From Flavobacterium sp. KS-LB2 (GTDB lineage: Bacteria > Bacteroidota > Bacteroidia > Flavobacteriales > Flavobacteriaceae): a DNA stretch of 64,000 nucleotides. How positions within the stretch are numbered: the first letter of the stretch is position 1; the number at the start of each line of letters is the position of its first letter. The notes under the pieces were generated by a model. The model was given only the letters and a program-made list of their open reading frames with translations, was not told the DNA's origin and searched no databases. This document shows positions 22,557-64,000 of the stretch, piece after piece. The stretch is taken from assembly GCF_036895565.1 (NCBI RefSeq), contig NZ_CP145904.1, positions 806,001-870,000 of the forward strand, in the 5' to 3' direction. A program made the position numbers and the translations under genes.

Positions 22557-22561
22557 AACTA

Positions 22562-26436: not shown

Positions 26437-26471
26437 TAATTATCAACACATTAGACATAAACAATAAGAGC

Positions 26472-26522: not shown

Positions 26523-26563
26523 GCTATTTTTCTTAGGAAGAAACCCGTTCAATAGAAACCCAT

Positions 26564-42180: not shown

Positions 42181-45100
42181 ATGAATAGCTTGTTGTCAAA
42201 TATAAATCCATCGATGAATGTTTTAGATATTGATTTATTAAAATTAAAAAGTGATTTTGAGAGAATTTTACTGTTAGTATCAGATGTTTGTAAAGTATCT
42301 GATGTATTTATTACTTTGGAGCCTGGTACAGGTTCTGTAATACCATTTAAAATTGGTTTAAAAGGATTTTCATTTGCTAATGAATTTAGCTGTTTTAAAT
42401 CTCTTATTGAGGAGAATAGGGATATAATTGTTTCTGATTTGAAAAATGATTTGCGGTTCAAAAGGATTGATTCTAAAAATACTTTTAACTTTTTTGCTGG
42501 ATTTCCTGTAAATACTTCTTCTCATTGTTTAGTTGGAACGATTTGTATTTTAAATAAAGAGCCTAAGGAACTGTCTTCAATAGAATTGATAATTTTAAAT
42601 CATGTCCGGTTAGAAATTGAATCTTTGTTGCAGGTTCATGTTGAAAACCTAAAGTTATTAAGTGTATTTGGCGAAAGCAAAAATCAATTTCAATTATTAA
42701 TAGAAAATTCAAAAGAAATTTTCTTTCAACTCGACTTGGATGGCAATTTTACTTATGTATCGCAAAACTGGACTCCTTTAGTAGGTCATTCCATTGAAGA
42801 AATTTTAGGGCAAAATTTCAGCCCCTACATTCATCCGGATGATGTTGATTCTTGTTTTGTTTTTTTAAATGATATTTTAGGGAAAAAAGATGATAAAAAG
42901 GAACATATTTACAGAGTATTGCATAAGGATGGACATTATGTTTGGCACTCTTGTAAAGTTGGATTATTGGAAAATAAAGATGGTACTTTTTATGCTGGTG
43001 CGGCAAGGGAAATAACGAAATATGTAGAAGGACAAAATAAGCTAAAAGAACAAAAAGAATTTTATGAAAAAATACTAGATGGATTACCTACGGGTGTCGC
43101 AGTTTACGATAGTGAGTTCAGATATCAATATCTAAATCCAGCAGCTATTAAAAATCCAGAATTGAGGCAATTTGCGATAGGTAAAACTAATTTGCAATAC
43201 GAACAACATGCTGGAAGAGATCGATCATTTGCTGAAAATAGGCAACTTAAGTTTGAAGAAGCGATTTTAAAAAAGCAGACGATTACGTGGGAGGATACTA
43301 TTCATGCTAAAAGCGGACAAATTTCGCATCATAGTCGAAAAATAACTCCTGTGTTTAATGCAAATGGAACACTTGAAATGTTAATTGGTTTTGGAATAGA
43401 TGTCACAAAGAGTAAAGAGATTCAAGAGGAAATACTAAAAAGTAAACAACTGATTAGTAGTATATTGCAGAATGTTGCAGTCGGAATTTTAGTTCAAGGA
43501 CCACAATCAGAAATAGTAGAAAACAATAAAGCGGCTTGCGAAATGTTGGGGCTTACTCAAGATCAATTGCTTGGTAAAACTTCTTTTGATGATTACTGGA
43601 GAGTAATTCATTTGGACGGTACTAATTTTAAACCTGAAGATCATCCAGTTCCAAGAGCAATTAAACATTTGAAACCAATGAATAATATTGTTATGGGAGT
43701 TCATCGGCCTTTAACAAATGATTTAGTTTGGTTATTAGTGGATGCTATACCTGTATTCGGAAACAACAAAGAGCTACTTTACGTGGTTTGTTCCTTCAAT
43801 GATATAACTACCCAAAAGAAGGCCGAATATGCTCTAAAACAAAGTAACGAAAGATTTATTTATTCCAGTATGGCTACATCCGATGCGATATGGGATTGGG
43901 ATATTGTAACTGGGAAAATATTTGTTGGAGGAAGCTATGCAACCCTTTTTGGACACCAATTTGAGAATAATATTATAACGGATAACGAATGTGAAGACTT
44001 TGTACATCCAGATGACAGAGATGATTATTTTAAAAGTATTGACGATGCAATAGCCGGAAAAGTTACAAAATGGTCTGGTGAATACCGTTATTTAAAATCT
44101 GATTCAACCTATGCGGATGTTAGAGATAAAGCAATAATTATTCGAGATAATCAGGGTAATGCTACTCGTATGATTGGCGCCATGCAAGATATCTCTTTAG
44201 AAAAAAAACTAAAAGACGAATTACAGCAAAGCGAAGAACAGTTCAAAGGAGCTTTTAAATATTCTAGTATTGGAATGGCTATTGTTGATTCTACAGGCCA
44301 TTGGAAAGTAGTAAACAGTCAAATAGTTCAAATCTTGGGGTATACTCTAGAAGAACTAAATGCATTAACTTTTTCAGACCTTACCCATCCTGACGATCTA
44401 GAGGAAGATTTAGTCAATTTAAAGTTAATGACTTCTGGATTAATTTCTAGTTATACAAGGGAAAAAAAATATTTGCATAAAAATAAATCAATAGTTTGGG
44501 GGCATTTATCAGTATCTCTGGTAAAAGACAGTGTGGGTAACCCAATCCATTTTATTTTTCAAATTGTGGATATCACCATTAAAAAAAGGATAGAAGAGGC
44601 AAACAAATTACTAATAGATGAAAATAATAAAAACAAAGCGATCCAGTTGAATGAAGCTAAAAACATGTATCGTCTTTTAGCTGACAATATGGTTGATTTA
44701 GTTTGTGTTCATAGTTTAGATGCTAATTTTCAATATGTTTCCCCATCGATTTCTCATATATTAGGCTACAGTCCTGAAGATTTAATTGGATTATCTCCTT
44801 TTGAATTCGTGCATCCTGAAGATGTAGTTAACCTTCAAAAGAGTATTACAGGTTTCATAACTGAACAGGAAGATATTTCAGCTAAAACGCGATTTAGAAA
44901 TAAAGAGGGCGAGTATATTTGGTGTGAAACCAAAGCAAGTTTAGTGAAAGAAAATGGTATTCCTGTTAGTTTTCATTCTTCTACTAGAGATATTACACAA
45001 GGGAAGGAAGCAGAATTAGCTATTAGAAAAGCATTAAATCAAGAGCGGGAATTGAATGAATTAAGGACTAATTTGGTTTCAACTATTTCACATGAATTCC

Positions 45101-45753
45101 GAACCCCAATGACAACGATACGGGCAAGTGCTGAGTTGATAATGATGTATTTAGATAATCAAAAGTTAGAAAATTATTCGCTTTTGAATAAAAGGGTTAA
45201 TATCATTGTTGGTGAAATTGATCGAATAGTTGAATTGATGAATACAGTATTAGTGATTTCTAAAAATGATCTTGGAAAAACAAATTTTTCTCCCATTACT
45301 TTTGACTTAAAGCAAACCTGTCTGGATGTTATTGAAGTAAGTGATTTTGATCAAAAAGAAGGAAGAAAAGTAAAAACATCATTTAGTGGAGTTACAATTC
45401 CCATATTTGCCGATAAAAGCCTCATGGAATACATTCTTTTTAATGTATTGAATAATGCATTTAAATATTCTCAAGGATTTGGAGGGGATATAATTCTTAA
45501 TCTTTTTACTACTACAAAGGCAATCATAATTGAAATTATTGACTTTGGTATTGGGATTCCTAAGGAAGATCAAGTAAAATTATTTAATACCTTTTTCAGA
45601 GCAAGCAATACCAATGGTATTCAAGGCACTGGTTTAGGTCTCTATATTGTTAAAACCTTCACAGAGAGAAATTCAGGTTCAATACAAATAGAAAGTGAGT
45701 TGGGGAAAGGGACAAAAGTAACATTGCAGTTTCCCAGGCCAAAATTAAAATAG
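42181..45753 (+). CDS. Soluble GAF-PAS(6)-histidine kinase (kinase 1)
   Basis: A 1190-residue cytoplasmic sensor kinase without membrane segments. A GAF-like domain at about 10-150 is followed by six PAS domains near 170-285, 290-415, 420-545, 555-680 (SDAIWDWDIVTGKIFVGG), 690-810 and 830-945. The DHp domain has H971 in ISHEFRTPMTTIR. The HATPase domain carries the N-box NVLNNAFKYS, G1 DFGIGIP and G2 GTGLGL (near 1149). It should autophosphorylate on H971 and pass phosphate to the receiver encoded 83 bp downstream. It is paralogous along its whole length to the kinase at 49065; the kinase core is identical at DNA level. The signal is unknown, and no haem or flavin residues stand out. Confidence 0.93.
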   Translation: MNSLLSNINPSMNVLDIDLLKLKSDFERILLLVSDVCKVSDVFITLEPGTGSVIPFKIGLKGFSFANEFSCFKSLIEENRDIIVSDLKNDLRFKRIDSKNTFNFFAGFPVNTSSHCLVGTICILNKEPKELSSIELIILNHVRLEIESLLQVHVENLKLLSVFGESKNQFQLLIENSKEIFFQLDLDGNFTYVSQNWTPLVGHSIEEILGQNFSPYIHPDDVDSCFVFLNDILGKKDDKKEHIYRVLHKDGHYVWHSCKVGLLENKDGTFYAGAAREITKYVEGQNKLKEQKEFYEKILDGLPTGVAVYDSEFRYQYLNPAAIKNPELRQFAIGKTNLQYEQHAGRDRSFAENRQLKFEEAILKKQTITWEDTIHAKSGQISHHSRKITPVFNANGTLEMLIGFGIDVTKSKEIQEEILKSKQLISSILQNVAVGILVQGPQSEIVENNKAACEMLGLTQDQLLGKTSFDDYWRVIHLDGTNFKPEDHPVPRAIKHLKPMNNIVMGVHRPLTNDLVWLLVDAIPVFGNNKELLYVVCSFNDITTQKKAEYALKQSNERFIYSSMATSDAIWDWDIVTGKIFVGGSYATLFGHQFENNIITDNECEDFVHPDDRDDYFKSIDDAIAGKVTKWSGEYRYLKSDSTYADVRDKAIIIRDNQGNATRMIGAMQDISLEKKLKDELQQSEEQFKGAFKYSSIGMAIVDSTGHWKVVNSQIVQILGYTLEELNALTFSDLTHPDDLEEDLVNLKLMTSGLISSYTREKKYLHKNKSIVWGHLSVSLVKDSVGNPIHFIFQIVDITIKKRIEEANKLLIDENNKNKAIQLNEAKNMYRLLADNMVDLVCVHSLDANFQYVSPSISHILGYSPEDLIGLSPFEFVHPEDVVNLQKSITGFITEQEDISAKTRFRNKEGEYIWCETKASLVKENGIPVSFHSSTRDITQGKEAELAIRKALNQERELNELRTNLVSTISHEFRTPMTTIRASAELIMMYLDNQKLENYSLLNKRVNIIVGEIDRIVELMNTVLVISKNDLGKTNFSPITFDLKQTCLDVIEVSDFDQKEGRKVKTSFSGVTIPIFADKSLMEYILFNVLNNAFKYSQGFGGDIILNLFTTTKAIIIEIIDFGIGIPKEDQVKLFNTFFRASNTNGIQGTGLGLYIVKTFTERNSGSIQIESELGKGTKVTLQFPRPKLK

Positions 45754-45970
45754 GGTTTCTCAAAGAAAGAGAAAAAACAGCATTTAGAAATTTAGAGTAT
45801 GAAATTATCTTTTTAAGTTGTACCTAATTACAATTAATGAATTTGAACAAAAGAGATATGTCGAAAATTTTGATTATTGAAGATGAGGAAGCATTGAGAG
45901 AAACCGTTGCTGAATTACTACTGATAGCGGGCTATGAAATTGCTGTAGCAAAAGATGGATTGGATGGACT
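45038..45970 (+). repeat. 933-bp identical direct repeat, copy 1 (kinase core to receiver)
   Basis: By eye every base from 45038 to 45970 matches 51892-52824 (offset 6,854). It covers the last 240 or so codons of the kinase, the whole 83-bp intergenic gap and the first 45 codons of the receiver gene. Flanking coding sequence is clearly diverged on the left. On the right, identity falls away gradually across the receiver. Confidence 0.93.
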
Positions 45971-46223
45971 GAAAAAAGTGCAGGAGGAAGTCCCAGATCT
46001 TATTTTATGTGATGTAATGATGCCAAAACTTGATGGATACGGTTTTCTAGAGCAACATCAGCTTTCAATTTATTCACATATTCCAGTAGTGCTGTTGACT
46101 GCGAAAATAGAATTGGATGACGAAATATTAAGTTTAAAACTAGGAGCCAAAGGATATGTAAGAAAACCTTTTAATTTTCTAGAACTTAATCGGATCATAA
46201 GGTGTTGGTTATTTTCCGAGTAA
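45858..46223 (+). CDS. Single-domain response regulator (receiver 1)
   Basis: A CheY-like receiver of 121 residues from the ATG at 45858 (MSKILIIEDEE). An in-frame ATG seven codons upstream at 45837 is also possible. The acidic pocket EDEE, the phospho-acceptor in LILCDVMMP (D52 in this numbering), the conserved T in VVLLTAK and K in RKPF are all present. With no output domain it should act by protein contact or as a phosphorelay intermediate. It lies 104 bp after kinase 1 and is the probable partner. Its N-terminal half is nearly identical to receiver 2, while the alpha4-beta5-alpha5 part differs, so its downstream targets may differ. Confidence 0.92.
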   Translation: MSKILIIEDEEALRETVAELLLIAGYEIAVAKDGLDGLKKVQEEVPDLILCDVMMPKLDGYGFLEQHQLSIYSHIPVVLLTAKIELDDEILSLKLGAKGYVRKPFNFLELNRIIRCWLFSE

Positions 46224-46260
46224 ACTGTTTTAAGGTAAAAATATTTATAATTAAGTTTTT

Positions 46261-46449: not shown

Positions 46450-46751
46450 ATTGGTTTCAAACTTTTGTAATGATGGCTATATGTAGATTATCATATTAAT
46501 TTTTTTAACCTACTTTTTTTGAAGTAAAAAATATATTACAAACATTTAAATGTACATACTCTAAAAAAAACAAATAATTTTCTGATTAAAAATTTAAAAA
46601 ATATTCCTAATGAGTTAAAAATCTAGATAGAATTTGTTATGTGAATTTGAAATTAAAGGGGGATCGTTGTAGTAAATTCTAATTAGGAAAGAATTTTATT
46701 TTTTAATAAAGATAGAAAAGATAGATAAGAATTAAGAAAACGATGATTTAT
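46450..46751. other. Intergenic region, no gene seen
   Basis: About 300 bp of AT-rich DNA between the small membrane ORF and the end of the receiver-AraC gene. No hairpin terminator is obvious. Confidence 0.4.
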
Positions 46752-47528
46752 TCAATCAAAGCCATTATTTTCATCTTTTACGGATTTGATATAATCTCGA
46801 GCAGACATACCAATATATGATTTGAAACTTGTAGAAAAGTAAGAAAATGAATTAAAACCAGTTTCATCTGCGAGAAACTGAATGTTTTTTTCACCCAAAT
46901 TAATTAGTCTAATGGCATAATCTAATTTAAACTCTCTTATATATTGACTTGTGTTTTTATTCGTAAGTTTTCTAATTTTTTTATCTAATGTAGATTTGCT
47001 AATAAAAAGCCTTTCTGATAATTCATAATGATCAATTTTTGATTTCATTAATTTTAATAAAATTTCATTTACTGATACGATAAAATCTTTTTCAGACAAC
47101 TTAATAGTAACTTTTGAAAAGGGATCAGGACTTAATTTTTTAATAATATTTATTTTAAAATCTAATATATTTGTAATCTTAAAAATTAATTCTTTTATCT
47201 TAAAAGGCTTCATTATATAATCATTTACACCATTTTCTAGTTGTCGATATTTGATTTCATCGTCCATATTAGCTGTTATTACAATGAAAGGGATAGAATT
47301 ATGTTTAATTTCTTTACGAATTTTTAAAAAAAACTCTTCTCCGTTCATGGTAGGCATCATTAAATCGCTAATTATAATATCACAGGTGTTTTTTTTGAAA
47401 TAACCAAGTGCTTGAGCTCCATCTTCGAACCATTGTACATCAAAATTACTCAAAGTTAATAACTCCAAAATAGAACTACCTAAAGCTAAATCATCTTCAA
47501 TTAGTACTATTTTTTTTTTTGATTTCAT
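46752..47528 (-). CDS. Receiver-AraC response regulator 1
   Basis: A 258-residue DNA-binding response regulator. The receiver (1-120) has ED at 11-12, D55 in IIISDLMMP and K in MKPFKI. The AraC HTH domain (about 155-250) includes LSERLFISKSTLDKKIRKL and FLADETGFNSFSYFSTSFKSYIGMSARDYI. It should be phosphorylated by one of the island's kinases and regulate transcription. It points towards the kinase 1-receiver 1 pair. A close paralog sits in the same convergent position after the second cluster (61186-61998), so the arrangement is duplicated. DNA targets are unknown. Confidence 0.92.
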   Translation of the reverse strand: MKSKKKIVLIEDDLALGSSILELLTLSNFDVQWFEDGAQALGYFKKNTCDIIISDLMMPTMNGEEFFLKIRKEIKHNSIPFIVITANMDDEIKYRQLENGVNDYIMKPFKIKELIFKITNILDFKINIIKKLSPDPFSKVTIKLSEKDFIVSVNEILLKLMKSKIDHYELSERLFISKSTLDKKIRKLTNKNTSQYIREFKLDYAIRLINLGEKNIQFLADETGFNSFSYFSTSFKSYIGMSARDYIKSVKDENNGFD

Positions 47529-48087: not shown

Positions 48088-48549
48088 TTACACTTTGCTC
48101 AAAACTTTATGTGATAATTGGTTTCTTGTTTTTGTTTTTAAAGATCGACTAAAGTCTACCTTTTTAATACCATTAATTTTAAATCTTTTGAAATTTAAAT
48201 CAGTTGTATTTATCAATACTGCATGCATGTATTTTTTTATAGTAAAAGAAATAAAAATGGCAATTAATTTTATAACATTTAAGATAAAAAGGGATGCATA
48301 AGTGACATCTATAAATTTCTCAAAAGTATGAAAGGTTATTATAATCAAAATAACACAAAAATAATTTATGTATAATACCCTATGCTTGGTAATTCTTACA
48401 GAAGAAATTTTATTTAGAGCAATTGTAGTAATATTATTTTTTTCAGTCACAGTTAGCGTATTTTCTGTTAATGAAAAATTTTGATTTTTTTTTGTTATAT
48501 CAATCAGCTCCTCGCTGTAAGAATAAATTCCATTCATCTTGAAAGACAA
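48088..48549 (-). CDS. Hypothetical membrane protein with PH-like N-terminus
   Basis: A 153-residue ORF. Residues 1-60 are soluble and strand-rich (NFSLTENTLTVTEKNNITTI, LNKISSVRITK), resembling small PH-like/DUF6232-type proteins. Two hydrophobic helices follow near 58-73 and 85-103 (INYFCVILIIITFHTF, LFILNVIKLIAIFISF), then a basic tail. The composition is gene-like, whereas the overlapping plus-strand ORF at 48065 is not. The family link is weak and from general pattern only. No operon partner. Confidence 0.5.
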   Translation of the reverse strand: MSFKMNGIYSYSEELIDITKKNQNFSLTENTLTVTEKNNITTIALNKISSVRITKHRVLYINYFCVILIIITFHTFEKFIDVTYASLFILNVIKLIAIFISFTIKKYMHAVLINTTDLNFKRFKINGIKKVDFSRSLKTKTRNQLSHKVLSKV

Positions 48550-49064
48550 TTACTTAATTTAATATCTTGACTACACAACTTATTTTCTTAAACACCCTTA
48601 ACGAAAAAGAATTCAAATTTATTACCTACTATAAATTTTAATAAGCTGCATAGCAAGAAAGTTCCAACATTTAATCAAATTTATAATTTGAGAGCTAAAT
48701 TTGTACTATTGTTACGATTGATTTAAAATTAAATGTCTATAATTTTTATTTTTCTAAATTCGAGCTCTTTGTTTATTTTCCAAATGTAAAAACAAGGGAA
48801 GAGGATAGAAAATCTTTAATTTATTTTATTATGTCTGTTTAGCGGTACTATTATTACTCCATGAAATACCAAAAAAATCGATAAAGTGAATTTATCAATA
48901 ATTCTATTATTTTTTAATAAAGTAATGTGATGAATGTTGTTTTAATGTATTAATATTATGTTAATTTGTCTTAATTTACTTAAAATTCTATAATGTCATC
49001 TGCTACGTGTTTAACAAAAAAATAATCTAAATAAATATTCTTACTTGAAAAATATTATTACCTC
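48550..49064. other. Divergent intergenic region
   Basis: A 515-bp gap upstream of kinase 2 and of the hypothetical membrane protein. Very AT-rich. No operator was recognised. Confidence 0.45.
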
Positions 49065-52000
49065 ATGAATGACTTTAGCCTAAAATTTTTGGAACTTGAT
49101 AATGATTTCAAAAGGATATTATTGTTTGTATCTAAAATATGCAATGTTGCTGATGTGTTTATCACGTTTTTAAATTCTGATATGCATATCATTCAATTTA
49201 AAATTGGTTTGGAAGGTGTTGCAAATCCAAATGAAATATATTGTTTTAATCATCTCATTACTGATAATCGTGATTTAATTGTTTCTAATGTTCAATGTGA
49301 TTCGCGATTTCAGTCAATTGACAGTATGGAATTTTATAAATTTTTTGCTGGATTTACTATAAATACTCCTTCAAAGTTATCCGTTTTTGGAGCTATATGT
49401 CTTTTAAATAAAGATGCTAAAGAGCTTACTAGTATTGAATTACAAGTTTTAAGAGATGCTGTTGTACAAATAGAGTCTTTGTTGCAACTTAATTTTAGAA
49501 ACCAAGTACTTCAGGAGGTCATAATTCAGAAGGACAATCAATTTCAGTTGTTATTAGAAAATTCAAAAGATGTATTCTTTCAACTAGATTTAAACGGAAA
49601 TTTCACTTTTGTATCACAAAATTGGACCTCTTTATTAGGACATTCTACTGAGGAAATTTTGGGAGAAAATTTTAGTCTCTTTATTCATCCAGATGATGTT
49701 GATGCTTGGTTTGTATTTTTAAATGGTATATCAGGAAAAAAAAAGGATAATAAAGAATTTGTTTATAGAGTATTACACAAGCACAGGCATTATGTTTGGT
49801 ATTCTTGTAAGGTTGGATTTGAAGAAAACAATAACGAAACTTTTTACAATGGTGTAGCAAGGGAAATAACGAAATATGTAGAAGCTCAAAATAATCTTAT
49901 TCAACAAAAAGAATTTTATGAAAAAATTTTGGATAGATTACCTACAGATTTAGCTGTGTTTGGAAATGATTTTAAGTACAAGTATCTGAACCCAGCAGCT
50001 ATTAAAAATGATGAACTTCGAAAGTTTATTATTGGGAAAGATGACTTTGAATACGCTAGATATACTGAGCGAGATGATACCTTTGCAATCAATAGAAGAA
50101 TTAAATTTGAGGAAGCAATAGAAACTAAGCAAACAGTATCATGGGAGGATAGTATCAATGCTAAAAGTGGACAGATAGTATATCACAGTCGAAAAATAAC
50201 TCCTGTGTTTGATGAAAATGGAACACTTGAAATGTTGATTGGTTTTGGAGTAGATGTTACAAAAAGTAAGGAAATTCAAGAGGAAATACTAAAAAGTAAA
50301 CAATTGATTAGCAGTATTATTCAGAATATAGCGGTTGGAATTTTAGTGCAAGGTCCACAATCTGAAATAATAGAAAGCAATAAGGCAGCTTGTGAAATGC
50401 TAGGTCTTACCCAAGATCAATTGCTTGGTAGAACTACTTTTAATGAAGATTGGGGAGTAATTCATTTGGACGGTACTAATTTTAAACCTGAAGATGATCC
50501 GGTACAAAAAGTAATTGAACAGTTGAAACCAATGAACAATATTGTTATGGGAATTCATCGCCCCTTAACAAATGATTTGGTTTGGTTATTAGTGGATGCC
50601 GTACCTATTTTTGGAAGCAATGAAGAACTACTTTATGTCGTTTGTTCTTTTAATGATATAACTGCTCAAAAGATGGTAGAGGATGCTCTAAAAACAAGTA
50701 ACGAAAGATTTAACTATTCTAGTATGGCTACATCAGATGCAATATGGGATTGGGATATTGTAACTGGTAAAATATTTGTTGGAGGAAGTTATACAACCCT
50801 ATTTGGACACGAATTTGAGAATAATATTATAACGGCTGCAGCATGTGAAAATTTTGTGCATCCTGAAGATAAAGATTCTTACAGGAAAAGTATTGAAACG
50901 GCAATCGAAGGAGATGATTCAAAATGGTCGGATGAGTACCGTTATTTAAAATCGGATGGGACTTATCTTTATGTTAAGGACAAAGCAATAATTATTAAAG
51001 ATCTAAATGGCAAAGCAGTTCGTGTCATAGGTGCTATGCAAGATATCTCTTTAGAAAAAAAACTAAAAGACGAATTACAGCAAAGCGAAGAACAATTCAA
51101 AGGAGCTTTTAAATATTCTAGTATTGGAATGGCTATTGTTGATTCTAAAGGCCACTGGAAAGTAGTAAACAGTCAAATAGTTCAAATCTTAGGGTATACT
51201 AAAGATGAACTAAATGCACTGACCTTTGCCGACCTTACCCATCCCGATGATCTAGAGGAATATTTAGTCAATTTAAAGTTAATGACTTCTGGATTAATTT
51301 CTAGCTATAGCAGAGAAAAAAGATATTTACATAAAAATAAGTCTATAGTATGGGGGCATTTATCAGTATCTCTAGTGAAAGACAGTATGGGTAACCCTAT
51401 CCATTTTATTTTTCAAATTGTGGATATCACCATAAAAAAAGAAATAGAGGAGGCGAACAAATTGCTAATAGATGAAAACAACAAAAATAAAGCAATACAG
51501 TTGAACGAAGCCGAAAATTTGTATCGACTTTTAGCTGATAATATGGTTGATTTAGTTTGTGTTCATAGTTTAGATGGTTGTTTTCAATATGTTTCCCCAT
51601 CGATTTCTCATATATTAGGCTATAGTCCTGAAGATTTAATAGGGTTATCTCTTTTTGAATTCGTGCATCCTGAAGATGTTGCTAATCTCCAAAGAAGTGT
51701 AATAAACTTTATAGCGGAAAAAGAAAATATTACAGCCAAGACACGATTTAGAAATAAAGAAGGCGAGTATATTTGGTGCGAAACTAAAGGACGATTAGTT
51801 AAAGAAAATGATATTCCAGTTAGTTTTCATTCTTCTACTAGAGATATTACACAAGGAAAAGAAGCTGAAATAGCCATAAAAAAAACATTGGATCAAGAGC
51901 GGGAATTGAATGAATTAAGGACTAATTTGGTTTCAACTATTTCACATGAATTCCGAACCCCAATGACAACGATACGGGCAAGTGCTGAGTTGATAATGAT

Positions 52001-52607: not shown

Positions 52608-52824
52608 GGTTTCTCAAAGAAAGAGAAAAAACAGCATTTAGAAATTTAGAGTATGAAATTATCTTTTTAAGTTGTACCTAATTACAATTAATGAATTTGA
52701 ACAAAAGAGATATGTCGAAAATTTTGATTATTGAAGATGAGGAAGCATTGAGAGAAACCGTTGCTGAATTACTACTGATAGCGGGCTATGAAATTGCTGT
52801 AGCAAAAGATGGATTGGATGGACT
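51892..52824 (+). repeat. 933-bp identical direct repeat, copy 2
   Basis: Partner of 45038-45970. The first differences on the right are two adjacent bases at 52825-52826 (Lys to Glu in the receiver). More substitutions follow until the receiver C-termini are unrelated in detail. Confidence 0.93.
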
Positions 52825-53387: not shown

Positions 53388-53392
53388 TTACA

Positions 53393-54972: not shown

Positions 54973-57900
54973 ATGATAAGCAAAAAAGATTTATTCGAAT
55001 TTTTTAAAATCTCACCAATCCCCAGTTTGGTATTGCAAACAGATGCACCAAAATTTACCATTATAGAAGCTAACAATGCTTATCTTGAAGCCACTTGTTC
55101 CACGCGCGAGGTATTAGTTGGTAAAGGAATTTTTGAAGCTTTTCCTGATAACGAATTGGACCCAATGGTTGATGGGGTTAAAAATTTAAGGACGTCTTTA
55201 ACTATAGTTCTTACTAGTAAAAAGAGTCATAAAATGGCTACTCAAAAATATGATATTCCTATAAGAGGAACATCAGAATTTGAACTTAAATATTGGAACC
55301 CTGAAAATATCCCATTATTGAATGACGACGGTGAATTACAAATGATTATTCATACAGTAATTGATGTCACTGAAAGCATTTTGGCACAGAATAAAATTGA
55401 AGAATCCAGAGCAATTATTGAAAAACGAAATGAGGTTTTGTGGCAAACTGAAAGCATCTCAAAACTATGTCGGTGGGAATTTAATTTAGAAACGAATGCC
55501 GTCTTTATGTCAGATAGTTTCTATCAAATTATGGGTTATGAAAGATCTGACCTTGAATTGAATTTTGAAACAATAGCTGGATTGCTTCATCCTGATGATA
55601 GAGAAAGAGCTATTGCTCATTTAGAAGAAACTTTAAAAAAAGAAGAGGATTATGTTATAGAACTTAGATTCCTATCTAAAAATAAATCAATTATTTATGT
55701 TGTTTCAAGAGGAATTTTTTTACATAACGATGATGGAGACATACAAAAACTTATTGGAGTCATACAAGACATAACCGATATCAAATTAGCCCAATATCAA
55801 ACTAAAAATACAAAAGAAGAGCTTCAAAAAATCCTGAATTTATCTTTGGATATTATTTGCACAACGGATAGTGAGGGAAGGTTTGTTAGCATGAATGCTG
55901 CCTGTACCAGAATTTTTGGGTATACCGCAGAAGAGATGATAGGGAAAAATTATACGGAATTTGTTAGTCATGATGATTTTCATAAATCAAAAGAAGTAGC
56001 GAAAAATATTTATAGTGGAATTGAAATCACCAATTTTGAGAATAATTTTATACACAAGGACGGTAGTTTAGTAACCATGTTTTGGTCTGCCCGTTGGCAA
56101 GAAGCTGATCAAACAATGTACAGTGTAGGTAAAGACATTACCCAGGTAAGAATTGTCGAAAAGCTAGCTAAAGAAAGACAATATTTTATCGAAACTGCTT
56201 TAGAAAATTTACCTATTGGCGTATCGATTTATAAAATAGATGAAGACAAAGTCATTTGGATGAATAAAAAATTTATTGAAATCTATGGCTGGCCTGAAGA
56301 AATACTAAATGTTGTTCAAACTGCTTTTGAAAAAATATATCCCGATGCGGGTTATCGTCAAGAAATTACGGTACGAATAATGGATGATATTAACAGCGGA
56401 GATACAAATCGTATGAATTGGGAAGAAATTAGCATCACTACTCAGGAGGGCGAACAAAAATACATCAATGCCAGAAATATTCCTTTAAATAATCAAAATC
56501 TTATGGTTTCGACCGTGGTAGATGTAACCGAAAGAAAGACAGCATTAGAAGCTATTGCAGAAAGCAACGAACGCTATGAGTATGTGACCAAAGCAACATT
56601 TGACGCTATTTGGGATTGGGATTTAAGAACTGATATAGTATATTGGGGTGAAGGATATGAACGATTATTTGGATATAAAATTAATTCTCTTGCCATAAAT
56701 AGTTCATCATGGTTAGATTATATTCATCCAGATGATCATAATAGGGTTTTAGAAAATATTAATGCTGCGATTGTTGGAATGGTAGTGAACTGGATGGATG
56801 AATACCGATATAAAAAATTAAATGAATCCTATGCTTTTGTAATCCATAAGGCCATTATTATTAGGGACTCAAATGGCACAGCAACACGTATGATTGGCGC
56901 ATTGCAAGACATAAGCAAGCAAAAGGAAGAAGAAGCTCGATTAAAACTTTTAGAATCGGTTATTACTAACACGAATGATGCTGTGGTCATAAAGGAAGCA
57001 AATCCATCGAGTGTATTAGGAAGAAAAATTACTTATGTCAATGAGGCATTTACCCGAATGACAGGCTACTCACGAAGTGACATTATAGGTAAAACCCATC
57101 ACTTTTTGCAAGGTCCAAATTCGGATACTGATGAGCTGGAACGATTTTATAAAGCGCTTGATGAAGTGAAGCCCGTTAAAATCACTATAATAAATTACAA
57201 AAAAAATGGAGAAGAATTTTGGGTTGATTTATCATTAAACCCAGTATTCAATCACTTAGGAGAACATACACATTGGATTTCTATAGAAAGAGATGTTACA
57301 GAGAGAAAAAATCAGGAACAAAAATTAGCGGAAATAAGCCAAAAATTATTGAATACGCTTGAAAGTATCCAAGATGGTTTTTACACGCTTGACAATAAAT
57401 GGAATGTGAGTTATTGGAATAGTGTAGCTGAACAAATTTCGGGGATAAATCAGGAAGAGATGATTGGGAAGAACTTTTGGGAAGTATATGAAGGGGAAAT
57501 TTCAAAAAGAATATATTCTAAATTTCATAAAGCCAAAGAACAAAATAAACGCACACGTTTAGAAGTGTTTTCAAAAAGGAATAAGCGCTGGTTTGAGTTA
57601 AATGCTTTTCCCTCCACTATGGGCTTGACTATTTATTTTAAGGATATTACTGAAAGGAAGGAAATAGAATCCAAACTTAAAAAGATGAACAAAGCCTTAG
57701 AGGCAAAGATAAAAGAATTGGCTATTTCTAATGAAGAGCTAGAACAGTTTGCTTATGTAGCCTCACATGATTTACAGGAACCACTAAGAATGGTCACTAG
57801 TTTTTTAACTCAAATTGAAAATAAATACGAAAAAGTATTGGATGAAAAAGGAAAAAAATACATCTTTTTTGCTGTAGATGGGGCTAAAAGAATGCGCCAA

Positions 57901-58407
57901 ATTATATTGGATTTGTTAGAGTTTTCTAGAATTGGAAAAAGTAAGAGCAATTTGGAAGAAATTAATTTGAATGAGATTGTAGACGAAATTATTTTGCTTT
58001 ATGGAAACCAAATTAAAGAAAAAAGAGCAAAAATTAATTACGAAAACCTACCCAAACTGTACTCCTATGCAGCACCTTTAAAAATAATATTTCAAAATTT
58101 AATAAGCAATGCATTAAAATATTCAAAATCAAGTTCTGCTCCTATTATAAATATTAGGAGTAAAGAGACTTCAATTGCTTGGGAATTTATAGTACAAGAT
58201 AACGGTATAGGTATTGATTCTGAGTATTTTGAAAAAATATTTGTTATATTTCAACGTTTGCATAATAAAGATGAATTTTCCGGAACTGGTATGGGATTAG
58301 CCATTACAAAGAAAATTATAGAAAATTTAGATGGGAAAATTTGGGTAGAATCCGAAGAAGGTATTGGCTCAATTTTCTACTTTACAATTCCTAAAAATAA
58401 AAAATAA
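54973..58407 (+). CDS. Soluble PAS(7)-histidine kinase of the phytochrome-kinase type (kinase 3)
   Basis: A 1144-residue cytoplasmic kinase with about seven PAS domains, near 5-135, 150-275, 290-400, 410-520, 535-660, 660-795 and 800-900. The sixth is LOV-like (VNEAFTRMTGYSRSDIIG, FLQGPNSDTDE, NYKKNGEEFWVDLSLNPV), but the photoactive Cys of GxNCRFLQ is H709. The DHp is of the bacteriophytochrome/Cph1 type, with H932 in FAYVASHDLQEPLRMV. The HATPase has NLISNALKYS, DNGIGI and GTGMGL. Kinases with this DHp type usually pair with Rcp1-like receivers, and one follows just 3 bp downstream. It heads a tight operon with that receiver and the hybrid kinase. Confidence 0.92.
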   Translation: MISKKDLFEFFKISPIPSLVLQTDAPKFTIIEANNAYLEATCSTREVLVGKGIFEAFPDNELDPMVDGVKNLRTSLTIVLTSKKSHKMATQKYDIPIRGTSEFELKYWNPENIPLLNDDGELQMIIHTVIDVTESILAQNKIEESRAIIEKRNEVLWQTESISKLCRWEFNLETNAVFMSDSFYQIMGYERSDLELNFETIAGLLHPDDRERAIAHLEETLKKEEDYVIELRFLSKNKSIIYVVSRGIFLHNDDGDIQKLIGVIQDITDIKLAQYQTKNTKEELQKILNLSLDIICTTDSEGRFVSMNAACTRIFGYTAEEMIGKNYTEFVSHDDFHKSKEVAKNIYSGIEITNFENNFIHKDGSLVTMFWSARWQEADQTMYSVGKDITQVRIVEKLAKERQYFIETALENLPIGVSIYKIDEDKVIWMNKKFIEIYGWPEEILNVVQTAFEKIYPDAGYRQEITVRIMDDINSGDTNRMNWEEISITTQEGEQKYINARNIPLNNQNLMVSTVVDVTERKTALEAIAESNERYEYVTKATFDAIWDWDLRTDIVYWGEGYERLFGYKINSLAINSSSWLDYIHPDDHNRVLENINAAIVGMVVNWMDEYRYKKLNESYAFVIHKAIIIRDSNGTATRMIGALQDISKQKEEEARLKLLESVITNTNDAVVIKEANPSSVLGRKITYVNEAFTRMTGYSRSDIIGKTHHFLQGPNSDTDELERFYKALDEVKPVKITIINYKKNGEEFWVDLSLNPVFNHLGEHTHWISIERDVTERKNQEQKLAEISQKLLNTLESIQDGFYTLDNKWNVSYWNSVAEQISGINQEEMIGKNFWEVYEGEISKRIYSKFHKAKEQNKRTRLEVFSKRNKRWFELNAFPSTMGLTIYFKDITERKEIESKLKKMNKALEAKIKELAISNEELEQFAYVASHDLQEPLRMVTSFLTQIENKYEKVLDEKGKKYIFFAVDGAKRMRQIILDLLEFSRIGKSKSNLEEINLNEIVDEIILLYGNQIKEKRAKINYENLPKLYSYAAPLKIIFQNLISNALKYSKSSSAPIINIRSKETSIAWEFIVQDNGIGIDSEYFEKIFVIFQRLHNKDEFSGTGMGLAITKKIIENLDGKIWVESEEGIGSIFYFTIPKNKK

Positions 58408-58410
58408 GTC

Positions 58411-58836
58411 ATGAAAAAAATTCATATTTTACTAGTTGAAGATAATGAGGCCGATATTATGCTTACAACTGATGCATTACAAGAAGGAAAAATCTGTAAT
58501 ACTGTAAGCGTTGCAAAGGATGGGAAACAAGCCATTGATTTTTTAATCAAGCATCATAATTCTTTGGATTTAGAACTTCCAAATCTTATATTACTTGACG
58601 TTAATCTGCCTAAAAAAAATGGTCATGAGGTGCTACAATATATCAAATCAAGTCCTGATTTTAAGCATATTCCAATCATTATGCTCACCACTTCGTCTTC
58701 TGAAAAAGATATCATGTCGGCCTATAAAAATTATGCCAATTGTTATATTACCAAACCTGTAGAAGTCATTGATTTTATAGACGCGATAGCAAAAATTGAA
58801 AATTTTTGGATTAGTATTGTTCACTTGCCTAAATAG
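58411..58836 (+). CDS. Rcp1-type single-domain response regulator
   Basis: A 141-residue receiver of the Rcp1 subgroup (ILLVEDNEADIMLTTDAL, LLDVNLPKKNGHEVL with D63, IIMLTTSSSEKDI, YITKPV). Rcp1 proteins serve phytochrome-type kinases, which fits kinase 3 immediately upstream. It has no output domain. A 5-bp gap separates it from the next gene, and its last ten codons are echoed by the fossil at 53355. Confidence 0.94.
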   Translation: MKKIHILLVEDNEADIMLTTDALQEGKICNTVSVAKDGKQAIDFLIKHHNSLDLELPNLILLDVNLPKKNGHEVLQYIKSSPDFKHIPIIMLTTSSSEKDIMSAYKNYANCYITKPVEVIDFIDAIAKIENFWISIVHLPK

Positions 58837-58841
58837 TTACT

Positions 58842-60782
58842 ATGGATAAGATTAAAGACATCAAGCCAATTGAAATTCTTATTGTAGAAGATAACGAAGG
58901 CGATTTTATACTCATCCAAGACTATATTCAAGAAAGGTTTTTATTTCCTAAAATTACTTGGGTGAAGAATTTCAAAAAGGCTCAATTCGTTTTAGTTGAT
59001 GCAGAATTTAAAATTGATTTAGTTTTATTAGACTTAACATTACCCGACAAAAGTGGAAAAGATCTGATAAATCAACTATTACCACTTTGTAACGCGATAC
59101 CTATAGTTGTTTTAACGGGCTATTCGGATATGGAATTTAGTATTACATCACTTTCTTTAGGTGTTTCCGATTATTTGATAAAAGATGAATTAGATGCGGC
59201 TTCCCTTTACACTAGTATTCTGTATAATTTAGAAAGAAAGAAATCTCAGATACAATTAGAAACATCTGAAAAGCGATATAATGATCTATTTCATTTGAGT
59301 CCTATTCCAATGTGGGTTTTTGATAATAAAACATTACAATTTATGGATGTTAATATCGCAGCCGAAATGCATTATGGGTATACCAGAGAAGAATTATTTG
59401 AACTAACTTTTGTTAATCTTACGCACCCTGAAGATATTAAGGATGATTTAGCTAATTTGGAGCTGTTGAAAAATGGATTGATTTCTAACTTTAACAAGGA
59501 AAAAAGATATTTTCATAAGAATGGATCTATAATTTGGGCAGATGTGACTGTTTCAGTGGTAAGGAATAGTTTGGGAAAACCAATTCATTTTATTTCTCAG
59601 ATTGTTGATATCACCTTAAAAAAAGAAATAGAGGAAAATAACAAGTTGTTATTAGATGAAAATATTAGAAATAATACCCTACAGTTAAAAGAGGCTCAAA
59701 ACTTGTATCGTCTCTTAGCCGACAATATGGTTGATTTAGTCTGTGCACACAGTTTAGATGCTAAATTTCAGTATGTATCCCCATCAATACATCATATATT
59801 AGGTTATTTACCTGAAGATTTAATTGGATTATCACCTTTAATATTTGTGCATCCTGACGACTATGAAAAATTGCAAAATACTATTCAAGATATTGTAACT
59901 GAGAAAGTGGATAGTTCAACCAAGGCACGGTTTAGAAATAAAGAGGGTAAATATATTTGGTTTGAAACCAAAGCCCGTTTAGTTAAAGAAAATGGTATTC
60001 CAGTAAGTTTCCAATCCTCTACAAGAAATATTACAGAAGGAAAAGAAGCTGCATTTGCGATTGAAAAAAACTTACAACAAGAGCGTGACTTAAATCAATT
60101 AAGAGCCAACTTAGTTTCTACTATTTCTCATGAATTTAGAACGCCAATGACAACCATACGTGCAAGTACTGAGCTAATCATGATGTATTTGGAGAACCAA
60201 AAAATAGAGAACTTTCCTATTTTGCAAAAAAAAATTAATATCATTTTGAGAGAAATTGATCGTATAGTTGAATTGATGAATACCGTTTTAATTGTTTCCA
60301 AAAATGATCTTGGAAAGACAAATTTTTCGCCTATTATTTTTGACTTAAAGCAAACCTGTCTTGATATTATAGAACTTAGTAATTTTGATTTCATAGAAGG
60401 AAGAAAAGTAAAAACATTTTTTGATGGAGATAGCTTTCTTGTTTTAGCAGATAAGAACTTGATGGAATATACACTTTATAATTTATTTAACAATGCTTTT
60501 AAATATTCTCAGGGTTTTGGCGATGTCCTTCTTCGTCTTATTACTACTGAAAAGGTCATTACTTTAGAAATTATAGACTTTGGTATTGGCATTCCAGAAA
60601 ATGATCAGGTCAATCTATTTAATACTTTTTTTAGGGCCAGCAATACAAATGGTATTCAAGGTACAGGGTTAGGGCTTTATATTGTTAAGACCTTTACAGA
60701 AAAAAATTCAGGTTCTATTGAACTAGAAAGTGAATTGGGAAAAGGTACAAAAGTAAGATTACTGTTCCCTAAATGCAAATAA
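58842..60782 (+). CDS. Receiver-PAS-PAS-histidine kinase hybrid (chimeric)
   Basis: A 646-residue cytoplasmic protein. Receiver 1-130 (EDNEGD, D64 in LVLLDLTLPDKSG), PAS about 148-270, PAS about 283-405, DHp with H430 in ISHEFRTPMTTIR, and a HATPase with NLFNNAFKYS, DFGIGIP and GTGLGL. The receiver and the first half of PAS 1 are close to the protein at 53393 (SPIPMWVFDNKTLQFMDVN). After AAEMHYGYT the similarity switches to PAS5-PAS6-kinase of kinases 1 and 2 (LTHPEDIKDDLANL, PIHFISQIVDIT, LYRLLADNMVDLVC). With the receiver at the front it could be turned on or off by phosphate from another kinase, such as kinase 3 via the adjacent operon. Confidence 0.93.
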   Translation: MDKIKDIKPIEILIVEDNEGDFILIQDYIQERFLFPKITWVKNFKKAQFVLVDAEFKIDLVLLDLTLPDKSGKDLINQLLPLCNAIPIVVLTGYSDMEFSITSLSLGVSDYLIKDELDAASLYTSILYNLERKKSQIQLETSEKRYNDLFHLSPIPMWVFDNKTLQFMDVNIAAEMHYGYTREELFELTFVNLTHPEDIKDDLANLELLKNGLISNFNKEKRYFHKNGSIIWADVTVSVVRNSLGKPIHFISQIVDITLKKEIEENNKLLLDENIRNNTLQLKEAQNLYRLLADNMVDLVCAHSLDAKFQYVSPSIHHILGYLPEDLIGLSPLIFVHPDDYEKLQNTIQDIVTEKVDSSTKARFRNKEGKYIWFETKARLVKENGIPVSFQSSTRNITEGKEAAFAIEKNLQQERDLNQLRANLVSTISHEFRTPMTTIRASTELIMMYLENQKIENFPILQKKINIILREIDRIVELMNTVLIVSKNDLGKTNFSPIIFDLKQTCLDIIELSNFDFIEGRKVKTFFDGDSFLVLADKNLMEYTLYNLFNNAFKYSQGFGDVLLRLITTEKVITLEIIDFGIGIPENDQVNLFNTFFRASNTNGIQGTGLGLYIVKTFTEKNSGSIELESELGKGTKVRLLFPKCK

Positions 60783-61185: not shown

Positions 61186-61998
61186 TTAACTAACATCCTT
61201 AATGGTTATATTTGCTTTATGTATTTCAAAATCATTTTTCGGATTTTGAATTGTTTTTATATAATCTCGAGCTGACATACCTACATAAGATTTAAAACTT
61301 GTACAAAAATAGGAAAACGAGTTAAATCCAGCTTCATTAACTAAGAATTGAATGTTTTTTTCCCCTAGATTAATTAGTTTAATACTATAGTTTAATTTAA
61401 ACTCCCTAATGTATTGGCTAATGTTTTTGTTTGTATGTTTTCTAATTTTTTTATCTAAAGTAGATTTTGAAATAAAAAGCCTTTTGGCCAATTCTGCATG
61501 ATCAATTTTCGATTTTAATGTTTTTACTAGAATTTCGTTGACGGCTGTGATAAAATCTTTTTCAGACAGATTTATAGTCACTTTTGAAAAAGGATCTGGA
61601 CTTAATTTTTTAATGATATTTAATTTAAAATCTAATAAATTTCTAATTTTATAAATTAATTCTTTGACCTTGAAAGGTTTTGTTATATAATCGTTGGCCC
61701 CTTTTTCTAATAAACTGTATTTACTTTCATCATCCATTTTGGCAGTAATTACAATGAAGGGAATAGAATTTGATTTTATTTCTTTTCGAATTTTTAAAAA
61801 CAATTCTTCTCCATTCATAGTAGGCATCATTAAATCACTAATTATAAGATCACAAGTATATTTGCTTAAATACATCAAAGCTTCTGCACCATTTTTAAAC
61901 CATTCTACTTGAAAATTATTAAAGGATAAAATCTCAACTATTGAACTTCCTAAAACCAAATCGTCTTCAATTAACAATATTTTTTTTTTAAATCTCAT
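61186..61998 (-). CDS. Receiver-AraC response regulator 2
   Basis: A 270-residue paralog of the regulator at 46752. The receiver has D55 in LIISDLMMP and K in TKPFKV. The AraC domain includes LAKRLFISKSTLDKKIRKH and NEAGFNSFSYFCTSFKSYVGMSARDYI. Recognition-helix residues are very similar to regulator 1, so the two may bind overlapping sites. A 12-residue C-terminal extension is the main difference. It converges on the second kinase cluster exactly as regulator 1 converges on the first. Confidence 0.92.
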   Translation of the reverse strand: MRFKKKILLIEDDLVLGSSIVEILSFNNFQVEWFKNGAEALMYLSKYTCDLIISDLMMPTMNGEELFLKIRKEIKSNSIPFIVITAKMDDESKYSLLEKGANDYITKPFKVKELIYKIRNLLDFKLNIIKKLSPDPFSKVTINLSEKDFITAVNEILVKTLKSKIDHAELAKRLFISKSTLDKKIRKHTNKNISQYIREFKLNYSIKLINLGEKNIQFLVNEAGFNSFSYFCTSFKSYVGMSARDYIKTIQNPKNDFEIHKANITIKDVS

Positions 61999-62537
61999 AG
62001 GGCAAATTTAATTGTTAATACTTTAAATTATAGCTTTTATTTTTTAACTCATTACTCTAATTAAATGTATTAGATTTTAAATAAATACTTTTAATTCCGA
62101 TTAAAGTTGGGTTGTTAAATCATTTTTAATGAGGGACTCTTTTATAATGAAAAATCTTGATGCAGCAATATCAAAAATTAATCGATAAAAATAATTATTA
62201 TTAAATGATACTTAAAATGGTTATTTTCAAAGAATAGTATAGATTCAAATTTTGCTACTTAATGTATTTTCATAATTCAAATGATATTATAAATTAGTAA
62301 GCAATCTTAACTTAATGTACTATTGATTTTTCGATTTTTACATGAATGATGAGAAAATAAATTTGAGAATTACTACTACTAAAATAATAGAAGACAATAC
62401 ATTTATGAATAATATTGATTTTATTGCAAAATGATACTAAAAAAAAGGTATAGTGATGGATTAATATAAATATTCATAATATGATTTTTCGTAAAAAAAA
62501 AAATGAAAGTACCACAAATTTAATTACACTCTGAATA
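61999..62537. other. Divergent intergenic region
   Basis: A 539-bp AT-rich gap between the receiver-AraC gene and the small kinase gene; both promoters must lie here. No RNA gene or clear operator was seen. Confidence 0.45.
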
Positions 62538-63248
62538 ATGAAAATAGAAGAAAACAAAAATCAAGACCTACAATCTAATTTATTATCTCTATGTTTCCAT
62601 CAATTGAGAAATAATATGACAATTTTGTATTCTAATGCTGAACTTATAGAGATGAAGACTGTGAATTTTGACCCAGCTATCAGTGCAAGTATTTGTAGCA
62701 ATACAAAAAGAATTAAAGCAGAAGTTGATCAAATAATGGGATTGATGAGTTATATTTTGGACTTAGGAAAACAGGAGGTATTTGAAACTAATAAAAACAT
62801 TCAAGCTGTAGATTTATCAACATTTTTAGAGCATATTATACTTATTTATTTTAATGAGGATTCTACAAAGCGAAAAATTAATTTTAAAGTTAATGGTATA
62901 CAAAAGAATGTTTTCACAGATAAACTACTATTGACACAGATTATAATTGATTTAATGAGCAATGCTTTTAAATATTCTGAGGGTCATAAAGATCCGATGT
63001 TAATCATAAGTTATTTGGAAAAAGAAATTACAATAGAGGTGGTTGATTTTGGAATTGGAATACCTGAAACAGAGAAGCAAACTTTATTCACACCTTTTTA
63101 TAGATGTTCCAATGTTAACGGAATACAAGGAAGTGGTTTGGGGTTGTTTATTTCAAAGAAATTCATAGAAATATTAAAAGGTTCATTAGTATTAGAGAGC
63201 AGAGAGCATGTAGGAACTACAATAAAATTAACCTTCCCCTATGAGTAA
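62538..63248 (+). CDS. Small sensorless histidine kinase with atypical H-box
   Basis: A 236-residue soluble protein made only of DHp (about 10-85) and HATPase (about 110-235). The phospho-acceptor is probably H21, but the H-box reads FHQLRNNM, not HE[FL]RTP. So the acidic residue after His and the Pro are missing. The ATPase part looks intact (NAFKYSEG, DFGIGIPETEK, GSGLGLFISKKF) and resembles that of kinases 1 and 2 (SNVNGIQGSGLGL). It may work as a phosphatase, as a weak kinase or through a different acceptor. It overlaps the next gene by 8 bp (ATGAGTAA), so the two are translationally coupled. Confidence 0.88.
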   Translation: MKIEENKNQDLQSNLLSLCFHQLRNNMTILYSNAELIEMKTVNFDPAISASICSNTKRIKAEVDQIMGLMSYILDLGKQEVFETNKNIQAVDLSTFLEHIILIYFNEDSTKRKINFKVNGIQKNVFTDKLLLTQIIIDLMSNAFKYSEGHKDPMLIISYLEKEITIEVVDFGIGIPETEKQTLFTPFYRCSNVNGIQGSGLGLFISKKFIEILKGSLVLESREHVGTTIKLTFPYE

Positions 63249-64000
63249 AAATAAAGTATTAATAATTGATGACGAGTCTAGCATTAGAGAAATGTTAAAT
63301 GAGATTCTTAGTATTGAAGATTACGATGTAATTGCAGCAGCAAATGGACAAGAGGCACTTGAAATATTAGATTATTGGGTTCCTGATGTCATTTTATGTG
63401 ATATAATGATGCCTGTAATGGATGGTTTTTTGTTTTATGAAATAGTAAATGAAAATAAGTCTTTGTGTGCGATTCCCTTCGTTTTTTTGACCGCAAAAAG
63501 AGATCATGAAACTATGCAAGAATGCATGCTTAATGGTGTTGATGCTTTTTTGTCTAAACCTTTTAAAATTGAGGATTTAAAAAAGGTTTTGAAGAACAAA
63601 ATTCAACGATTTGTCCAAATAAAGAATGCGAATACCAATTTATACACAGGAGAAAAAAAATATTTTTCGCATGAGGTCAATACTCCGCTTAATGGAATAT
63701 TGGGGGTTGTAAATCTATTGCTAAAAAATCATGATCGTTTAGACAAAAATGAAATAGTTGATTTTTATAATTGTATTAAGATATCTGGCGAGCGTTTGAA
63801 TCGTACCATGCAAAATTTATTTCTTTACCAAAGAATTATTGAAAATAAATTTTATTTTGAGGAAATTGAATCGTGCAATATATTAAGTGTTTTTTCTAAA
63901 GTTACTGATAACATTTTTTATATTTATGAAACTGCACCTGCGAGAATTTCTTTTGAAATTGAATCCTTAGATTTAAAAATTAGTAGTACCTATCTATCTT
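63241..64000 (+). CDS. Receiver-histidine kinase protein (N-terminal part, cut by window edge)
   Basis: Translated by hand from the ATG at 63241, open to the window end (253 codons). The receiver (1-120) has IIDDES, D54 in VILCDIMMPVMDG, T in VFLTAK and K in LSKPFKI. A DHp helix follows with H144 in YFSHEVNTPLNGILG, so an ATPase domain is expected beyond the edge. The start overlaps the stop of the small kinase, so the two form a coupled unit. The small kinase may control this protein's receiver. Confidence 0.88.
   Translation, partial: MSKNKVLIIDDESSIREMLNEILSIEDYDVIAAANGQEALEILDYWVPDVILCDIMMPVMDGFLFYEIVNENKSLCAIPFVFLTAKRDHETMQECMLNGVDAFLSKPFKIEDLKKVLKNKIQRFVQIKNANTNLYTGEKKYFSHEVNTPLNGILGVVNLLLKNHDRLDKNEIVDFYNCIKISGERLNRTMQNLFLYQRIIENKFYFEEIESCNILSVFSKVTDNIFYIYETAPARISFEIESLDLKISSTYLS

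Follow-up and report, generated by a model that had tools for sequence, protein, structure and literature searches.

Do the kinases and receivers crowded at one place on a Flavobacterium chromosome form one signalling module, and what does it control? The question is raised by a window of 64,000 nucleotides from Flavobacterium sp. KS-LB2 (positions 806001–870000 of a genome that is a single 3.41-Mb contig), of which the last ~22 kb hold an island of histidine kinases, receiver proteins and two regulators that join a receiver domain (REC) to an AraC-type DNA-binding domain (REC-AraC). The answer to which we incline, on balance, is a signalling module for surface life that belongs to the genus, was copied once here, and controls adhesin and exopolysaccharide (EPS) genes through REC-AraC and a 41-bp DNA element.

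Two modules make up the island

Kinases with HisKA, HATPase_c and an H-box His stand beside receiver domains here, which places the island among two-component systems, and REC joined to HTH_18/HTH_AraC (Pfam) identifies the REC-AraC proteins as response regulators. A preliminary description of this DNA had listed such an island, and its genes lie at the places noted. The 'at least five kinase or kinase-like genes' that it reported are six with HATPase_c (at 42181, 49065, 54973, 58842, 62538 and 63241, the last running beyond the window), and its three single receivers (45837, 52691 and 58411) and two REC-AraC regulators (46752 and 61186) were all confirmed by Pfam. The ~22 kb carry 8 of the 42 REC matches and 6 of the 44 HATPase_c matches in the genome, the latter family taking in non-kinase ATPases too; this density is far above chance. 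The statement that almost nothing else occurs here holds for the density of the island but overlooked a small membrane protein at 48088, the sole further gene called. The kinases had also been thought soluble, in agreement with a simple hydropathy scan of the six, which gave no convincing membrane segment, the one hydrophobic stretch of K2 (residues 18–36) lying within its GAF-like front.

Module A comprises a kinase, a single receiver, a REC-AraC regulator, a second kinase and a REC-kinase, together with the small membrane protein. Its first gene, K1 (42181–45753, + strand), encodes a soluble multi-PAS histidine kinase of 1190 residues with Pfam PAS families, HisKA, HATPase_c and, by eye, a GAF-like front; it is followed by the single-domain receiver REC1 (45837–46223, +; Response_reg) and, convergent to REC1, by RAraC1 (46752–47528, −; Response_reg and HTH_18). 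The small membrane protein (48088–48549, −), which recurs at the locus, has a hydrophobic segment and no Pfam match; its listed start is TTG, and an ATG four codons further in is likelier. The duplicates K2 (49065–52607, +; 1180 residues) and REC2 (52691–53071, +), recognised by DNA match to K1 and REC1, come next, and the second regulator RAraC2 (61186–61998, −; Pfam) stands further on. The island closes with HK236 (62538–63248, +), a kinase core with the H-box HQLRNNM that was assigned by its match to a 669-residue kinase of relatives, of which it covers only positions 434–667, so that the sensor is missing, and with RECHK (63241–64000, +), a REC plus kinase core of 360 residues that ends at genome position 870323, beyond the window.

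Module B sits inside the second copy of the module-A unit. It consists of a REC-PAS protein (53393–54418, +), a multi-PAS kinase of 1144 residues (54973–58407, +; Pfam), a single receiver that we take to be of the Rcp type (58411–58836, +; Pfam and receiver tree) and a chimeric REC-PAS-PAS-kinase (58842–60782, +). The first of these had been described as receiver-PAS-DHp; REC-PAS was found, and its tail is DHp-like with a His by eye, but it has no HisKA or ATPase match in Pfam.

The split into module A and an inserted module B follows from the different receiver branches. Of 398 genomes in the genus, 46, our own among them, have a REC-AraC orthologue (E up to 1e-45). We fetched 44 loci from 43 relatives; of the 46 regulator loci in relatives, those of G270 (contig edge) and G390 were left out. 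In a tree of 151 receiver-domain rows and 123 alignment columns, whose deep forks are unsure, the receivers of the single RECs, the REC-AraC regulators and the REC-kinases share one branch with a support of 88/90, which falls under the tool's mark of 95/80. From elsewhere in the KS-LB2 genome this branch takes in only a REC-kinase paralogue at 916.5 kb (genome 916534–917619, beyond the far end of a nearby EPS cluster), in which the H-box His is apparently Ser. The receivers of 53393, 58411 and 58842 lie outside it. An alpha-1 pattern of aliphatic, acidic and hydrophobic residues at three positions, chosen after looking at the data and aligned by eye to what we take to be positions 16, 22 and 23 of OmpR, fits 98 of 100 module-A rows, 1 of 26 other receivers of the genome (the REC-kinase paralogue) and none of the 3 receivers in module B. 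The acidic position by itself was rejected as a mark of module A, since E or D also occurs there in 4 of the 26 other receivers and in all 3 of module B. Thirteen tree rows labelled as REC-kinases were copies of REC or REC-AraC rows from loci without a REC-kinase, except L146, where the REC-kinase is split; they were dropped before these surface counts, as were nine rows with an unparsed alpha-1, seven of them other receivers of the genome. The common branch and surface pattern make it plausible that the module-A kinases share receivers. The earlier idea that many inputs share receivers may thus stand for module A, and did not extend to the REC-PAS protein, the Rcp-type receiver and the front of the chimera, whose receivers lie elsewhere.

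A duplicated kinase-receiver unit with an identical tract

The two copies of the kinase-receiver unit (42167–46215 and 49017–53069) are 84% identical in DNA, and RAraC1 and RAraC2 are 79% identical. The unit of kinase, receiver and convergent REC-AraC had been reported to occur twice; the duplication is real, but in the second unit the four-gene block of module B separates kinase and receiver from their REC-AraC. The chimera at 58842 also draws on both modules: its REC-PAS front (58803–59380) matches 53354–53931 (81%), and its kinase half (59376–60769) matches 44338–45734 in K1 (77%). The island had further been called self-duplicating, a term that found no support: a tandem copy as in the window was seen in none of the 44 fetched loci, no mobility gene was called at 42–64 kb, and the 64-kb window contains no tRNA. 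Smaller local duplications occur in at least three of the 44 loci; those of L159, L163 and L179 involve an extra REC of the REC-kinase, a partial REC-AraC and extra kinase fragments.

Within the duplicated unit, 933 bp are exactly identical between the copies (45038–45970 and 51892–52824, by DNA comparison). The tract runs from inside codon 953 of K1, through DHp-CA and the spacer, into codon 45 of REC1, and such a run is not chance at an average identity of 84%. Synonymous divergence (dS) between K1 and K2 switches abruptly, from 0.38–1.51 in seven sensor segments to 0.0 in DHp-CA. Since the spacer is identical too, selection on protein alone cannot explain the tract, which points to gene conversion, unless it is an assembly error. 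If the tract is real, K1 and K2 have the same core and REC1 and REC2 the same docking half, the receiver ends being different. With identical cores and docking halves and diverged sensors, two sensors probably drive the same wire.

The identity may equally well be devoid of functional meaning, whether it arose by neutral recombination or by an error of assembly. Conversion tends to be most frequent in the stretches where two copies resemble each other most, and the identical spacer makes selection on protein unnecessary. Against this reading stand the assembly of the genome into one contig, the 84% average identity and the abrupt switch in dS, with all of which a neutral event is still compatible. 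A more ambitious reading, which we hold only tentatively, is that of a signal-integrating hub, in which conversion keeps a common phosphotransfer interface between duplicated sensors, so that new sensors can join and all still act through a single regulator of adhesin and polysaccharide genes, which moves together with EPS clusters within the genus. At the same tentative level, such a hub would run counter to the insulation that duplicates are expected to acquire. In duplicated two-component systems, mutations have been described that insulate paralogous pairs (PMC9208753). The present locus resembles those systems in having a duplicated kinase-receiver pair and differs in that the interface is identical, probably by conversion; the term 'gene conversion' does not occur in the main text of that paper (PMC9208753). 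If the proposed reading of the island holds, the locus offers a natural case of a duplicated kinase-receiver pair that keeps a common interface, probably via gene conversion, and makes insulation versus integration after duplication testable.

The module recurs in the genus and has probably changed its site

The subfamily of REC-AraC appears confined: an orthologue was found in 1 of 397 genomes of the family, namely our own, and RAraC1 has 449 database relatives, of which 120 were listed; those of the 120 that bear an organism name are Flavobacterium, except one given as 'Bacteroidota' only. REC-AraC is present in every fetched locus by the selection of loci; the inputs vary. Relatives of K1 occur in 29 of the 44 loci, some broken or shortened, single receivers related to REC1 in 23, and a kinase of 669 to 800 residues (GAF-PAS type) in 29, in one case split into two frames. 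The REC-kinase occurs in 32, of which four (L148, L172, L174 and L177) retain the receiver part only. Relatives of the small membrane protein are present in 27, and a protein search with it gave four relatives beyond the KS-LB2 protein itself. A whole-K1 scan of genome contigs found no close relative, the best-segment identity in the best 80 of 221 stretches being 22–46%.

The recurrent order is K1, REC, convergent REC-AraC, divergent kinase and REC-kinase. Losses follow a pattern: six small genomes retain just K1, in a short form, with REC and REC-AraC; where REC-AraC is divergent, in nine loci, neither K1 nor REC is present; and in four large genomes K1 is absent and REC stands on the opposite strand. 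A check of gene order in other genomes had been proposed, with lack of co-conservation as the result that would speak against an island; the order recurs in the genus, albeit with losses.

Most loci occupy one site, with dnaG and/or a polyprenyl-synthase gene near the module in 34 of 44. In our genome this home site is empty, dnaG lying beside the next conserved gene, and the 19.5 kb around it have no site above 11 bits for the element described below. Between KS-LB2 and G238, dnaG is 95% and the synthase 98% identical, as against 71% for REC-AraC and 56% for K1, which makes vertical descent of the KS-LB2 copy of the module improbable; the simplest reading would be that it was transferred from another lineage. 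G294 has a second copy of the module in addition to the home copy. An empty counterpart, in relatives, of the present KS-LB2 site was also sought through the neighbouring glmS and not obtained, as the glmS matches in five relatives (86–89%) lie in another neighbourhood, as a housekeeping copy would.

Off-site copies often have EPS-type neighbours. Polysaccharide-export or nucleotide-sugar genes, mostly named by eye, with Pfam applied to two proteins of L155, one of L148 and one of L168, accompany 7 of the 10 off-site loci (L148, L155, L168, L172, L174, L177 and L187), of which L148, L172, L174, L177 and L168 have neighbours in common and could go back to a single event. The L187 regulator is followed directly, on the same strand, by wza- and wzc-like genes (named by eye). 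Of the other three off-site loci, L166 has a SprB-type adhesin adjoining the module, L146 is on a short contig, and L179 has no EPS-type genes within its stretch. The copy in our window is ~2 kb from an EPS cluster at genome 872–911 kb, which contains sugar-transferase (Bac_transf), NusG-like, export (Poly_export) and Wzz/AAA-type genes.

A direct-repeat element may link REC-AraC to candidate targets

Alignment of up to 250 bp before 45 REC-AraC genes gave an element of 41 bp with a conserved direct repeat ~21 bp apart. It lies mostly 20–41 bp before the REC-AraC start codon and is followed by what we take to be a −7-like box. A matrix was built from 37 instances, with the RAraC2 promoter in and the RAraC1 promoter out. 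Scanning the window recovered the training site before RAraC2 (62019–62059, −; 32.7 bits) and three further sites: one 3' of RAraC1 (46582–46622, +; 25.0 bits), one 156 bp upstream of the SprB-like adhesin (41624–41664, +; 18.8 bits) and one 162 bp upstream of the small membrane protein (48711–48751, +; 15.3 bits). Two weaker matches scored 14.5 (59950, within a gene) and 10.9 (29490, the only match at a fructan-type locus); the top score in ten Markov controls of 64 kb was 11.3. The adhesin, a SprB-repeat surface protein of 2305 residues (34551–41468, −; Pfam) whose type IX sorting tail scores slightly below the Pfam cut-off, had been named as one possible target of the island, and the upstream element lends support to this candidate.

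Scanning genome 806–924 kb added sites at 905474 (32.1 bits), which stands 168 bp before a LytTR-domain gene where the promoters of the EPS cluster diverge, at 871064 (29.0 bits), at 917735 (23.0 bits), 116 bp before the REC-kinase paralogue, and at 918062 (12.8 bits). Outside this region, the other KS-LB2 stretches scanned have one site above 12 bits (14.5). In the 44 loci (849 kb), 38 sites of at least 16 bits lie outside the masked training promoters, compared with a mean of 0.7 and a largest count of 2 for 20 column-permuted matrices.

The small membrane protein is a recurrent candidate target. In 27 loci, 14 of 29 such genes have a site of at least 14 bits no more than 260 bp upstream. 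In four cases this site is the one shared with the REC-AraC promoter; of the other ten sites, nine are inverted relative to the gene, at 107–206 bp. Inverted placing ~90–180 bp upstream is also seen at the SprB-type adhesins of KS-LB2 and L166, and L148, L168, L172, L174 and L177 have an inverted site ~110 bp upstream of an XRE-type gene that adjoins the module. In all five this gene (Pfam HTH_3 for L148) is set at the edge of nucleotide-sugar genes; a remnant of an XRE gene near genome 871064 was sought and not found.

A genus-wide pattern search, with hits scored over 36 of the 41 element columns, gave 57 hits outside known REC-AraC loci. Hits of at least 24 bits occurred in 7 of 46 regulator-positive versus 3 of 352 regulator-negative genomes (Fisher 1.6e-5, odds ratio 20.9). 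The 14 hits in regulator-positive genomes lie in thirteen stretches, all of which were inspected. The site is 27 bp before a protein of 1849 residues with an Ig_7 match below cut-off in G382, 12 bp before a protein of 1378 residues with Ig_7 and a CHU_C type IX signal in G298, before a gene of 157 residues followed by a HYR_4C protein of 953 residues in G187, before a FIST-domain gene in G118, and between SusC-like and GH32-like genes (by eye) in G127. L368 has no site above 12 bits and L366 just an unrelated 12.7-bit match. Taken together, the common element suggests that the module controls surface adhesins and EPS.

It is improbable, though worth weighing, that the element is a general A+T-rich promoter feature of Flavobacterium or the site of another regulator. 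The element consists mostly of A and T and lies beside the −7-like box in REC-AraC promoters; regulator-negative genomes also match the pattern, with 43 hits, of which 3 reach at least 24 bits; and a pattern search of the KS-LB2 genome gave 72 matches versus 58 for the reversed control. The permuted matrices, however, have the same composition and find nearly nothing in the loci, and high-scoring distal sites are much more frequent in genomes that carry the regulator. The KS-LB2 pattern was tuned on sites already seen in the region, which makes its zero-mismatch count circular, and it misses the adhesin site (4 mismatches). All five of its matches of at least 20 bits over the matched 37 bases nonetheless lie within 852–918 kb, where the pattern was tuned, and one is the training site; the next best outside score 18.9 (2704970) and 18.0 (171264), the latter rising to 20.1 when the whole element is counted.

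How the module may be wired

From the sequence we infer the following signal, phosphotransfer partners, DNA binding and direction of regulation. The soluble K1-type multi-PAS and 669-residue GAF-PAS kinases would read internal signals and phosphorylate related receivers, namely the single REC, REC-AraC and the REC-kinase. Phosphorylated REC-AraC is predicted to bind the direct repeat and to regulate large surface adhesins, the small membrane protein and the REC-AraC gene itself; in KS-LB2 the EPS promoter and the REC-kinase paralogue would be added to these targets. Through gene conversion the two copies would retain one kinase core and one receiver docking half as their sensors diverge. The single receivers could be phosphate sinks, or could act directly on EPS enzymes as in EpsW-EpsZ. 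In EpsW-EpsZ of Myxococcus a single-domain receiver is tied to EPS synthesis (PMC12802240). The likeness lies in the single receivers and in the sugar-transferase gene (Bac_transf) of the nearby EPS cluster; unlike in EpsW-EpsZ, post-translational control by a receiver is here a mere possibility (PMC12802240).

Several observations weigh against a surface-signalling module of this kind. Its wiring is not fixed, K1 and REC being absent from many loci, and some REC-kinases no longer have the H-box His (L161, L180 and the KS-LB2 paralogue at 916.5 kb). RAraC1 has no element above 10 bits before its own gene, and for the strong-looking sites at window 46582 and genome 871064 there is no clear target. 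Nor are the 38 extra sites independent, as they belong to related loci; several distal sites have neighbours without an evident surface role (L363, L364, L367, L369, L370 and L373); and with no score cut-off the contrast between regulator-positive and regulator-negative genomes is weak (11 of 46 versus 42 of 352, p 0.036). In addition, none of 25 LytTR-homologue stretches from 24 other regulator-positive genomes, 17 of them with a homologue, has a site above 9 bits, so that this survey does not establish the EPS-promoter site as a general feature, although many homologues are weak and may not be the EPS gene.

The preliminary description had also spoken of an integrating phosphorelay. In a true multistep relay the kinases would pass phosphate to single receivers, these to the DHp of the REC-kinase, and this to REC-AraC as the end point, for which the sporulation relay is the model. 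Several kinases, a single receiver and one DNA-binding end point are common to both, and single receivers and the DHp-bearing REC-kinase often stand beside REC-AraC. No HPt family is among the Pfam matches of the scanned island proteins, however, and no Spo0B-like protein is shown here; the kinases may pass phosphate directly to REC-AraC. The H-box losses just listed, the four loci whose REC-kinase has no kinase part, and the six small genomes with just short K1, REC and REC-AraC also speak against such a relay, which we regard as unlikely. Least convincing is a loose pile of independent two-component pairs made neighbours merely by local duplication: the separate branch of the module-B receivers, the gain and loss of genes between loci and the kinase and receiver neighbours elsewhere in the KS-LB2 genome are in its favour, but in 34 of 44 loci module A keeps a recurrent order near the same place on the chromosome, its genes remain together elsewhere too, and its receivers are close kin.

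Set beside known regulators, REC-AraC has the build of what we take to be the YesN type, a receiver followed by a C-terminal AraC-type HTH; it is unlike these in being accompanied by up to two kinase types with kin receivers and in the confinement of its subfamily to the genus among the genomes searched. In Bacteroidota, hybrid two-component regulators govern polysaccharide loci. The module has their kinase-receiver-AraC logic and belongs to the same phylum, but its parts are separate proteins rather than one chain, and it has no periplasmic-binding or evident membrane sensor. A literature search by title and start of abstract found no description of this locus among the papers listed, which is weak evidence of absence. 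If the proposed control holds, the way in which some Flavobacterium species govern adhesins and surface polysaccharide can be approached through a regulator subfamily, a candidate DNA site and a few named targets, each open to direct testing.

Neighbouring genes

Upstream in the window, 15000–29296 hold a fructan-type utilisation locus with two GH32 enzymes, a sugar transporter, SusC/SusD-type genes and a PfkB kinase, and with a hybrid regulator that has a periplasmic-binding-type sensor (26564–29296). On the other side, beyond the EPS cluster, a relaxase-like protein (by eye) is encoded at genome 922673–923947, perhaps part of a mobile element.

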